Shown in pieces: positions 13,707-19,545 of a DNA stretch of 64,000 nt. The stretch spans positions 1 through 64,000 of the forward strand of contig CALLPC010000005.1 of NCBI GenBank assembly GCA_938015525.1, given 5' to 3'. Numbering within the stretch: position 1 is the first letter of the stretch; every line of letters starts with the position of its first letter. The DNA comes from an uncultured Dehalococcoidia bacterium. GTDB taxonomy: Bacteria; Chloroflexota; Dehalococcoidia; Tepidiformales; Tepidiformaceae. The position numbers were made by a program, and so were the translations under genes. Under the pieces are notes generated by a model that ran no database searches, was not told the DNA's origin, and saw nothing but the letters and a program-made list of their open reading frames with translations.

Positions 13707-14711
13707 TCAGGCCGGCACCACCCGCCGCATCACCGCCTCCGTGAACGCCATCGTCCCCAGCGTCCCGCCGAGGTCGCGCGTCTTCTCCCCCGCCGCGATC
13801 GTGTCGTGCACCGCGTCCACCAGCTGCCGGCCGAGCGCGCCGTACCCGCAGAACTGCAGCAGGTAGCCGAACGCCTCGATCGCACCGGAGGGGTTCGCGA
13901 CCCCCTGCCCCGCGATGTCCGGCGCCGTCCCCCCTGCCGGGTCGAACACGCCGATGACCGGCTGGTGGCTCTTCGAGAACGCGTACGACGCGCTTGCCCC
14001 CAGCCCGATGGAGCCGATGAGCCCGTACACCATATCGCTCAGGAAATCCCCGTACTCGTTCGGGCAGACGATCACGTCGTACCGCTCCGGGTCGATGATC
14101 AGCTTCGCCAGGAGCGCATCGAACAGCTCCCGCGTGTGCCGCACGTTCCGGTACTCCGCGGCCACCTCCGCCACCACCTCCTCGAACAGCCCGTCCGTCG
14201 CCCGCTGGATGGTGTACTTGCTCGTCGAGGTCACGGCCTGCCGGTGCTGGTCCGCGAGCCGGAATGCGAAGTGGGCCGCATGCTCCACCGGCGTCCGCTC
14301 CATCACCCGCACGCTCACCGCCGAGTAGTAGCCGATCCGGATGCCGGCATCCTCGTACGTGCCGCCCGTCGCAATCCGCACGACGTGCAGGTCGACCTTC
14401 CCCGTGTAGTTCCGGCTCACGCCCGGGTAGCTCCGGCACGGCCGGTGGATGACCGCCAGCCCCAGCCGGTCGCGGAGCACCTGATTCGGGCTCACCGTCT
14501 CCGTCACCGTCGGGTACTTCATCGCCGCGCCGAGCGCCCGGGTCGCCTCGATGCCCTCCTCCAGCGCCCCGGGCGACGCCTCCCGCCGCTCCAGCGACCA
14601 GTCGACCGGCCGGAAGACGACCGGCGAGCCGAGCGCCTCGTTCAGCGCGCGGACCGCCTGCCGCAGCTCCCCTGCGATGCCGTCACCGTTCAGTTCAACC
14701 ACTTCGCGCAT
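13707..14711 (-). CDS. isocitrate/isopropylmalate dehydrogenase family protein
   Basis: NGDGI, NYTGKVDLHVVR, DVIVCPNEYGDFLSDMVYGLIGSIGLGASASY, FDPAGGTAPDIAGQGVANPSGAI. Confidence 0.85.
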   Translation of the reverse strand: MREVVELNGDGIAGELRQAVRALNEALGSPVVFRPVDWSLERREASPGALEEGIEATRALGAAMKYPTVTETVSPNQVLRDRLGLAVIHRPCRSYPGVSRNYTGKVDLHVVRIATGGTYEDAGIRIGYYSAVSVRVMERTPVEHAAHFAFRLADQHRQAVTSTSKYTIQRATDGLFEEVVAEVAAEYRNVRHTRELFDALLAKLIIDPERYDVIVCPNEYGDFLSDMVYGLIGSIGLGASASYAFSKSHQPVIGVFDPAGGTAPDIAGQGVANPSGAIEAFGYLLQFCGYGALGRQLVDAVHDTIAAGEKTRDLGGTLGTMAFTEAVMRRVVPA

Positions 14712-14883
14712 GCCCGCCAACCCTCCCCGGGCCAGTCTCCCCCAGAGTGTGCACCCGAAACCGTCTACGGTGGACGAACGAAATTCCCCGTAACCTTCCC
14801 CATTGGTAGGATTCGGCCGGCTTCCGTGCACCGGTGCGCACCAGTCGCGCTGCACAGCCGGACACACTCAACCGGGGGACGAC

Positions 14884-16950
<2,067 letters not shown>

Positions 16951-16974
16951 GCCGCGCCCGCGGGTGCACATCGC

Positions 16975-17004
16975 GGCCGCCGGTTGAGCACCGGCGGCCG
17001 TTTT
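16975..17004 (+). terminator. Rho-independent terminator after hppA
   Basis: GCGGCCGCCGGT-tgagc-ACCGGCGGCCG followed by TTTTC. Confidence 0.8.
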
Positions 17005-17049
17005 CTCTATCCTGCGGCCCCCGGGCATCCCCGGCGGAGGCCCCCGTCC

Positions 17050-18939
17050 ATGTTCCTCGCCCAGCTCCTCGTTCCCGTCGCCGTCGTCATCGGCGTCGCT
17101 GCCGCCCTCGTCAGCCGCTTCGCCGCGCGTGACCGTTCGGTTCCGCCGCCGCCCTCGCCCCGGCCCGGGCTCCTCGCCCTCGCCGCGGCACTGGTCGGGG
17201 CCGGCGTCCTCGGGACCGTCGCCATCGCCCTCTACACCGGGGGCTACGCCGGCTCGCTCGAGCGGGCGGCCTGGGCCGGCGGGGGGTTCCTCGCCGGGTT
17301 TGCCGCGGCGGCGGCCGCGGCCATCCTGGCCCTGGCCCTCGATACCGACGACGGGCGGCCTGCAGCCGCCGGGCCGCTCACCGGCGTCAGCCTCGTCCTC
17401 GGGGCAGCAGCCGGCGTGTACGCCCTGGCCGCCGGCCCCGCGGGCGAAGGCCCCTGGGCGGCCGCCTCCCTCGTCGCCCCGCTCGCGGCCGGCGCCGGTC
17501 TCGCGGCCGTTCTCGGCGTGCTCATCCCGCCGCCCGGGCCCCGGCAGCCCGGCGCAGGGCCGGCTGCCGCCATCGCCGCCGCTGCGGTCACCGCTGGGCC
17601 ACTCGCCGGCGGCGAAGCGGCCGCGCTCGCGCGGGAGGCCGCCTGGACGGCGTTCCCCTTCGCCGTCCTCGCCGCGGCCATCGCCGGGAGCGCCGTCGCC
17701 CTCATCCCCGGCACCGTCATGGCGGCGGCAGGCCGCCCCTGGGCCGGCACCGCGGCGGCCGTCCTCGCCGCGGCCGTCACCATCCTCGCCGCCGCCGGGG
17801 CGGCGGTCGTCCTCCTCCCCGGCGGGTGGGGCTGGAGCGCCGGGGCCGCCGCTGCCGGGGCTGTCGGCGGGCTCGCCCTCGCCGGGCTCAGCGGGCTTCG
17901 CCCGGCGCGCCCGGGGACGCTCGCCGGCGCCATGCTCGCCTGGGCCCTCGCAGCGGCTGCGGCGCTCGCGGCCTGGTTCCTCGCCCGTGAACTGGTCGGC
18001 CAGGGATTCCCCCCCGCCGCGGGCGGCGTGTACGGCCTCGCGCTCGCCGCCGCTACCGCGCTCGGTCCCATCACCGCGTCCGCCTCCCTCGCACCGCTGG
18101 CGCCCCGGCAGGAGGAGCTCCAGGCGGGCGGGGACGACGCCGGCCGCTGGGCGCCCCCGTGGGCCGAACCCCAGCCGGACCCGCGCCCCGCGGCGGGCGA
18201 GCCTGCCCCGCAGCCCCATCCCGCCGCCGCGCTCGCCGGCGCCGGGGTCCTGGCAGCGCTCGCCCTCGCCCTCGCGCTCGGGGCCCACGCCCGCCACGAA
18301 CTCCTCCGGCTCGCGGCGGCCGACCCGGTCCGCTACGCCGAGGCCGTGCAGGGGCTCGGCCTCATCCCGCCGGGCGGCCCCGGGAGGTACGCCCTCGCCA
18401 ACGACGCCCGGGCCCACCGCGAACGCCTCGAAGAGCTCCGCGCCGCCATCGCCAGCGACGCCGATTTCGGGCCCGCCGACGTCCGCCTCCTGCTCGGCGC
18501 CGACGCCGCCGCCCGCGATGCCTTCGTCGCGGCCCGCCTCGAAGCCGGACGGCTCCTCACCGGCGAAACCGCCGCCATCGCCCCCGCCCGCCACCCCCTC
18601 CCCAGCCTCCTCCCCCTCCCCGCCACCGCGGGGACCCTGCTCGGGGTGCTGCTCGGCTTCGCCGCCCTGGCCGCCGCATCCTCAGCCTTCGACCGGCCCG
18701 GGCGGGCCTGGGCCCTCGTTGCCGGGGCCCTCGCCGTCCCGGCTGCGCTCCTCGGGGCGGTGCCCGCCCTCCGATTCCTCGGCCCGGGCGAGGCCGATGC
18801 CCTCGCCCTCCTCGCGGCCTTCGCGCTCATCGCAGGGCCCGGCGCCGGCCTCCTTGCCGTCCGCCAGCCGGGCGCGGCCGCGGCAGGCCCGGCAGCTGCC
18901 GCCCTCGCGGCCGGGCTCGTCGCGGGCGTGCTCGCCTGA
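17050..18939 (+). CDS. Ala-rich polytopic membrane protein; probable degenerate membrane-pyrophosphatase paralogue
   Basis: 629 aa, many predicted TM segments; collinear residual similarity to the adjacent hppA (see findings). Confidence 0.6.
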   Translation: MFLAQLLVPVAVVIGVAAALVSRFAARDRSVPPPPSPRPGLLALAAALVGAGVLGTVAIALYTGGYAGSLERAAWAGGGFLAGFAAAAAAAILALALDTDDGRPAAAGPLTGVSLVLGAAAGVYALAAGPAGEGPWAAASLVAPLAAGAGLAAVLGVLIPPPGPRQPGAGPAAAIAAAAVTAGPLAGGEAAALAREAAWTAFPFAVLAAAIAGSAVALIPGTVMAAAGRPWAGTAAAVLAAAVTILAAAGAAVVLLPGGWGWSAGAAAAGAVGGLALAGLSGLRPARPGTLAGAMLAWALAAAAALAAWFLARELVGQGFPPAAGGVYGLALAAATALGPITASASLAPLAPRQEELQAGGDDAGRWAPPWAEPQPDPRPAAGEPAPQPHPAAALAGAGVLAALALALALGAHARHELLRLAAADPVRYAEAVQGLGLIPPGGPGRYALANDARAHRERLEELRAAIASDADFGPADVRLLLGADAAARDAFVAARLEAGRLLTGETAAIAPARHPLPSLLPLPATAGTLLGVLLGFAALAAASSAFDRPGRAWALVAGALAVPAALLGAVPALRFLGPGEADALALLAAFALIAGPGAGLLAVRQPGAAAAGPAAAALAAGLVAGVLA

Positions 18940-19054: not shown

Positions 19055-19205
19055 TTGCATGCGCGTTCGGTTCTTGCACCACCTGCCTAGTGCGCCGTTG
19101 CGGCGCAGCGGGGGACCCACTACCCCGGGGCGAACGCGGCCAGCCGGCCGCCAGGGCGCCTTCCGCCCGAGCCCGTCAGCTAACCCCGTCGGCAGTCTGG
19201 AAGGC
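19055..19205 (+). ncRNA. cyclic di-AMP riboswitch (ydaO/yuaA)
   Basis: Signature blocks gcGCGGGGGACCCA-like (agcgggggacccac), GGGGCGAAC, and CCGAGCCCGTCAGCTAACCCCGTCGGCA. Confidence 0.88.
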
Positions 19206-19298
19206 CTGGCGAGCAGGTAGCTCGTTTCGAGGTCTTTTTTTCTGTCCTCGAAGGTCACCATAACGGCTCTTTAACGAAAGGAAGAGGAGGGAATCGTC

Positions 19299-19517
19299 AT
19301 GCCAGCTCTACAGGAAGCACCGCCGAAGTCCTGCCCCAAGTGCCGCGGCTCGATCATCGTCGAGCGCGACTGGCACGGCACCTACGGCAGCTGCATCATG
19401 TGCGGCTACGTCCACGAAGTGCTCACCAGCCCGCCCGTCGACCTCGCCGCCGAGGAAGCCGCCCTGCCCCAGCGGCAGCGCCGCCGCCAGCCTTCGCACG
19501 GCAAGCTCCGGCTCTGA
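19299..19517 (+). CDS. 72-aa zinc-ribbon protein (CPKC...CIMC)
   Basis: Good SD (ggaagaggaggg), two CxxC knuckles, basic C-terminal tail RQRRRQPSHGKLRL. Confidence 0.75.
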   Translation: MPALQEAPPKSCPKCRGSIIVERDWHGTYGSCIMCGYVHEVLTSPPVDLAAEEAALPQRQRRRQPSHGKLRL

Positions 19518-19545
19518 CCAGCAGCCGGGCCAGCGGCCCCCAACC

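Follow-up and report, generated by a model that had tools for sequence, protein, structure and literature searches.

What is encoded by the long reading frame directly behind hppA, a membrane pyrophosphatase (mPPase) gene, in the 64,000-nt stretch of an uncultured Tepidiformaceae bacterium analysed here (contig CALLPC010000005.1; the window)? The hppA product (A) scores 892 bits against PF03030 and is an ordinary mPPase with the K+-dependent signature. The second frame, C, starts 102 nt after hppA and runs for 629 codons from its ATG at 17050 to a stop codon ending at 18939 (Table 1). Its product contains 32% alanine and no lysine, and GC at its first/second codon positions is 0.87/0.66 vs 0.68/0.47 in hppA. 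A sequence-only reading had taken C for a possible dead mPPase paralogue, which is borne out by a chain of sequence comparisons, a privately shared insert, a 16-helix model, Foldseek and synteny. C is very probably a pseudoenzyme of the mPPase superfamily. In what follows, B denotes the working insert-type mPPases of Tepidiformaceae. A 1299-aa antisense ORF opposite hppA and C (14695-18594, minus strand) was rejected as a gene, being a mechanical product of the high-GC codon pattern.

Table 1. Features of the hppA/C locus, in window coordinates
Feature	Position	Strand	Description	Basis
hppA (A)	14884..16950	+	688 aa, mPPase with K+-dependent signature (GNTTAA), catalytic residues all intact	PF03030, NCBIfam, residue table
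Terminator-like hairpin in hppA/C gap	16973..17001	+	12-pair stem, T-run	
Ribosome-binding site of C	17036..17040	+	GGAGG, 9 nt upstream of ATG	sequence
C (putative pseudo-mPPase)	17050..18939	+	629 aa, 16 predicted TM helices, 0 catalytic residues, 0 lysine	
TM1-TM12 of C	17053..18321	+	residues 2-424	AlphaFold2 helices, loop lengths
Extracytoplasmic insert domain of C, TM12/TM13	18322..18627	+	residues 425-526	insert-only search, alignment, model
TM13-TM16 of C	18628..18933	+	residues 527-628	model and position; without sequence-profile support
c-di-AMP (ydaO) riboswitch	19074-19209	+	upstream of ORF 19300-19518	
Zinc-ribbon ORF (CPKC...CIMCGY)	19300-19518		tiny, strikingly conserved, no Pfam match; followed by ABM-domain gene	

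A strong hairpin lies in the hppA/C gap of all five Tepidiforma genomes, three of which show a clear TTTT run there, and hppA and C are set apart by a similar hairpin in genus g8, making it plausible that C is produced in smaller amounts than HppA there or is expressed separately. The gap in genus g13 measures 49-53 nt and has no terminator-like hairpin, so hppA and C are likely to be co-transcribed in that genus. All eight further loci scanned (genera g1, g8, g13 and g14) had the riboswitch downstream of hppA, and for a riboswitch of this kind the zinc-ribbon ORF behind it seems an unusual target. In genus g8 the stretch from C to the riboswitch encodes a small homologous protein, present once or in up to three tandem copies, that by its look is a putative GNAT-type acetyltransferase (L061 7321-7893, L062 11131-12416, L083 1771-3820).

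Relation of C to membrane pyrophosphatases

Window C matched no Pfam family, PF03030 included; NCBIfam returned noise only, and a PDB sequence search nothing meaningful. Annotation pipelines overlook the most diverged members of the superfamily entirely. Direct comparison with the adjacent HppA was not significant either (BLASTP E 0.045; hhalign profile-profile E 0.06), for which reason the mPPase homology of C becomes significant only by way of the insert-type mPPases and graded intermediates. A search with the C sequence found, at E 3e-14 to 1e-6, genuine mPPases from further Tepidiformaceae genera, in which C residues ~306-544 aligned with ~815-aa proteins carrying all mPPase motifs and the K+-independent signature GNTTKA. 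Orthologues of C occur in four other Tepidiforma genomes (54-69% identical, full length), and the frame is open in all five.

Profile comparison by hhalign extended these matches into a chain. The Tepidiforma C profile aligned with that of C from g8 and g13 at E 2.8e-25 (residues 1-605) and with B at E 8.7e-15 (residues 1-540); the g13 and g8 forms matched B at E 3.9e-47 and 5.4e-92, respectively. Removal of the insert left a collinear match between Tepidiforma C and the g8 and g13 forms (E 4e-12). Reversed and column-shuffled controls reached E 0.089 at best, which rejects a chance likeness of alanine-rich membrane proteins and disposes of the worry, raised with the sequence-only reading, that the similarity might go no further than transmembrane composition. 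TM13-16 of Tepidiforma C gained no sequence-level homology support of its own from the profile comparison. The four HppA/C segment pairs that had been aligned by eye fell into the same register in a 19-sequence MAFFT alignment; the claim that C is collinear with HppA thus stands as to register, but the direct similarity of the two proteins is not significant.

A second line of evidence comes from the K+-independent-type (group B) mPPases of Tepidiformaceae. Between TM12 and TM13 they carry an extracytoplasmic insert of ~110 aa, which window C has as well. When the insert of a working mPPase, from a genus other than Tepidiforma, was used by itself as query, it matched the window at 18289-18603 (E 1.3e-7), precisely where a ~100-aa soluble insert had been read from the letters (near 18290-18600). 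The same query found matches in three of 400 Chloroflexota genomes, all Tepidiformaceae and one of them the window locus; in this survey the insert thus appears to be confined to Tepidiformaceae B-type mPPases and C proteins. The hhalign chain with its controls, the private insert and the intermediates together strongly support common descent of C with the mPPase superfamily.

Predicted fold, losses and selection

AlphaFold2 given the five Tepidiforma C sequences alone, an input that contained no mPPase, returned a weak model (pLDDT 51), and a Foldseek search of the PDB with this model ranked mPPases at positions 1-18 (best E 0.0066, probability 0.97). Given C and B sequences together, it produced a model of pLDDT 81 and pTM 0.87 with exactly 16 long TM helices and short helices for the insert, for which the top 18 Foldseek matches were again all mPPases (E 2e-6 to 1e-3; the next protein at E 0.12). 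The sequence-only reading had been staked on a 16-TM mPPase fold, and the 16 helices are present in the model; their mPPase-like arrangement is supported, not proven, since TM-scores of 0.40-0.46 with large rmsd indicate a model that is approximate in its overall packing.

The PPi, Mg and gate positions were mapped through VrPPase. Window C keeps 0 of ~20 of these catalytic positions, in agreement with the earlier observation that all PPi/Mg-binding Asp/Lys motifs are absent, whereas A and B keep them in the residue table, one B entry of which has a gap of unresolved bases. The DNVGDNVGD, DNAGG, GNTT and GDTVGDPFKD motifs of a working mPPase are deleted from C, and the gate Asp/Glu/Lys residues are missing too. 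From this we infer that the C product is unable to bind PPi, to hydrolyse it or to operate the ion gate.

The deletions in C lie on the cytoplasmic side only. Residues on that side, counted between helix midpoints with sides assigned from known mPPase topology, not measured, number 469 in B, 459 in g8 C, 350 in g13 C and 297 in window C; the corresponding extracytoplasmic counts are 312-315, 313, 300 and 307. Shrinkage affects loops 5-6, 9-10, 13-14 and 15-16, and in Tepidiforma also loops 1-2 and 3-4. In window C, accordingly, loops 1-2, 3-4, 5-6 and 9-10 within TM1-TM12 are deleted or shortened relative to working relatives, and loops 13-14 and 15-16, the latter with GDTVGDPFKD, are deleted within TM13-TM16. 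Best preserved are the insert and all extracytoplasmic loop lengths, which individually match those of B and differ from those of A.

Pairwise dN/dS of C (Nei-Gojobori) was 0.18-0.51 in Tepidiforma, 0.14-0.39 in g13 and 0.24 in g8, compared with 0.02-0.17 for hppA, and C evolves several times faster than A. Regional pN/pS lies mostly at 0.4-0.7, in the helices and the insert alike. No stop interrupts any complete copy of C in the three genera, and in neutral simulations the frame stayed open in 1-6 of 200 runs. These values, which the sequence-only reading had proposed to obtain, point to purifying selection that is relaxed but present. C thus appears to combine the loss of catalytic residues with conservation of the gene under purifying selection, as a pseudoenzyme does.

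The tandem across the order and its history

A PF03030 survey of the order covered 38 genomes of 18 genera, whose hppA loci were then inspected. A second ORF stands right behind hppA on the same strand in 16 genomes of three genera (g8, g13 and Tepidiforma), so that the pairing, for which a conservation check had been suggested, is kept well beyond the window. Complete copies grade from 803-805 aa in g8 (PF03030 160-190 bits) through 680-684 aa in g13 (about 30-46 bits) to 628-633 aa in Tepidiforma (no PF03030 match). C always adjoins A, and none was found away from it in the 38 genomes. No plasmid copies were found.

All C proteins fall into one clade (support 100/99) beside the Tepidiformaceae B enzymes and far from A. 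Tree, loop lengths and insert alike place the ancestry of C in the K+-independent subfamily, with the GNTTKA and not the GNTTAA enzymes, and reject C as a degenerate copy of the adjacent hppA. AU tests rejected that the g8 or the g13 forms had arisen from B independently (p 0.001 and 0.003), to be read in the light of long branches and skewed composition; a species-tree-like grouping of g1 and g8 was not rejected (AU p 0.145).

Five genomes from other families of the Chloroflexota (G345, G229, G268, G127 and G040) have intact tandem pairs, GNTTAA enzyme then GNTTKA enzyme, and the best reading of C is therefore a decayed second gene of such a tandem. Our literature search found no description of these Chloroflexota pairs. 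The loci recorded with a K+-dependent (GNTTAA) plus K+-independent tandem are L087, L088, L089, L081, L082 and L063. The last, from g8 genome G028, has behind hppA a B with intact catalytic motifs that is cut by the contig end (L063 1-1098 and 1210-3333, minus strand) and may be a replacement or the ancestral state; three other g8 genomes carry dead C in that place. The survey of the order found no working B in Tepidiforma and g13 genomes. The genomes checked also gave a match to family I soluble pyrophosphatase, the one in g13 being weak and partial.

The comparison shows how, in Tepidiformaceae, an ancient A-B tandem, K+-dependent mPPase first and K+-independent mPPase second, turned into A plus C, whereas several Chloroflexota families still have it intact. 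The B-type second gene acquired the extracytoplasmic insert typical of the family at TM12/TM13 and lost its catalytic Asp/Lys/Asn residues, the stage seen in g8; its cytoplasmic loops went next, in g13 and, to the fullest extent, in Tepidiforma. Retained throughout were the core of 16 helices, the insert and the lengths of the extracytoplasmic loops.

Possible roles of C and known systems

Recurrence of the dead copy beside the pump gene in related genera suggests that C probably retains a function, perhaps that of partnering the live pump, which it would exert through its membrane core and extracytoplasmic side, the parts it has kept. mPPases have been reported only as homodimers (PMC6882861). 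They show half-of-the-sites reactivity and have a subunit interface of helices 10, 13 and 15; communication between the subunits runs by way of helix 12, helix 13 and loops on the exit side, 12-13 among them (PMC10897367, PMC6530997). Older work, as cited in PMC6882861, held one live subunit to be enough for hydrolysis and a functional dimer to be needed for pumping. Since subunit communication runs around helices 12 and 13, the place of the insert, and one live subunit may suffice for hydrolysis, a dead partner of HppA is the most attractive role. C would most likely serve as a non-catalytic partner, whether as half of an A:C dimer of the otherwise homodimeric pump or as a helper docked on the exit side of HppA, where mPPase subunits communicate. 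That C acts on or with HppA in either way we propose tentatively, at somewhat less than even chances; gene linkage and evolutionary history speak for a physical association. The fuller proposal is more doubtful: the Tepidiformaceae mPPase might be naturally heteromeric, HppA being joined by a catalytically dead, head-less protomer with an extracytoplasmic domain, which would make permanent in evolution a functional asymmetry that homodimers show transiently and would tune coupling or substrate inhibition of the pump.

Several observations count against a partner of HppA. In two genomes (G017 and G018) the neighbourhood of hppA, riboswitch and zinc-ribbon gene is present and C is absent; with the neighbourhood conserved as a whole, adjacency alone is no proof of cooperation, and C is dispensable. 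A Fisher test of A/C co-occurrence was left out of the evidence because the genomes are related. Descent of C from B, not A, makes heterodimerisation with A less obvious. TM13-16 of Tepidiforma C, the part without sequence-level support, would hold two of the three dimer-interface helices, and the hairpin between the genes in Tepidiforma and the faster evolution of C were counted on the same side. The main rival, doubtful yet of real weight, is that C stands alone as a scaffold, anchored in the membrane by its mPPase core so as to present the insert and not touching HppA. Preservation of the insert and extracytoplasmic loops with removal of the cytoplasmic side would suit such an anchor, as would the ancestry in B, but 16 helices are far beyond what an anchor needs, they are under purifying selection much like that on the insert, and C is never found apart from A.

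The remaining explanations are weaker. Retention of the 16-helix core with loss of the PPi site could mean that C uses the old pore for a new transport or channel activity without PPi, which is unlikely given that the gate residues are also missing, from a protein of extreme alanine content and without lysine. That C is a functionless relict, slowly decaying and open by chance, would fit its fast evolution, its drift towards alanine and GC with no lysine, its progressive deletions and its absence from G017 and G018; we consider it quite improbable, because no complete copy in three deeply diverged genera has a stop or frameshift, dN/dS never exceeds 0.51 and falls to 0.14, neutral simulations usually gain stops, and the deletions are confined to the cytoplasmic side. 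Hardly credible, and already contradicted, is an unrelated alanine-rich polytopic protein resembling HppA by composition: the missing Pfam match and the non-significant HppA comparison are what such a protein would give, but the insert is shared privately with mPPases, PF03030 recognises the intermediates (about 160-190 and 30-46 bits), reversed and shuffled controls fail, and Foldseek ranks mPPases first even for the mPPase-free model. A non-catalytic partner of HppA stays the reading we prefer for the role of C.

Our literature search for inactive, pseudoenzyme, heterodimeric or tandem mPPases returned nothing relevant, and no pseudo-mPPase was found described. Why mPPases must be dimers, each subunit with the full catalytic machinery, is an open question of the field, for which an evolutionary series from intact to shaved beside the live gene offers a ready test: is one live site enough, and does a one-site dimer lose the coupling of pumping to hydrolysis? 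Multimeric enzymes with pseudoenzyme subunits are a known pattern in which a decayed paralogue stands under selection beside the live enzyme, as C does. With the K+-dependent mPPases (TmPPase, VrPPase and the window HppA encoded next door) C shares the predicted superfamily fold, but it differs in subfamily and loop lengths and has no significant direct sequence similarity to them. It is closer to the K+-independent mPPases (PF03030; solved example Pyrobaculum aerophilum PaPPase, 8b37), sharing 16 predicted TM helices and their order, a place behind a K+-dependent gene in a tandem and, with the family's own B, the lengths of the extracytoplasmic loops, and it differs from them in the loss of all catalytic residues, the deletion of loops 5-6, 9-10, 13-14 and 15-16 and the lack of a Pfam match. 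The Tepidiformaceae B-type mPPases (~815 aa, GNTTKA) share with C the ~110-aa TM12/TM13 insert, present nowhere else in the 400 genomes, and keep every catalytic residue, whereas C is dead. Set beside these systems, C is a new pseudoenzyme branch of the known mPPase superfamily.
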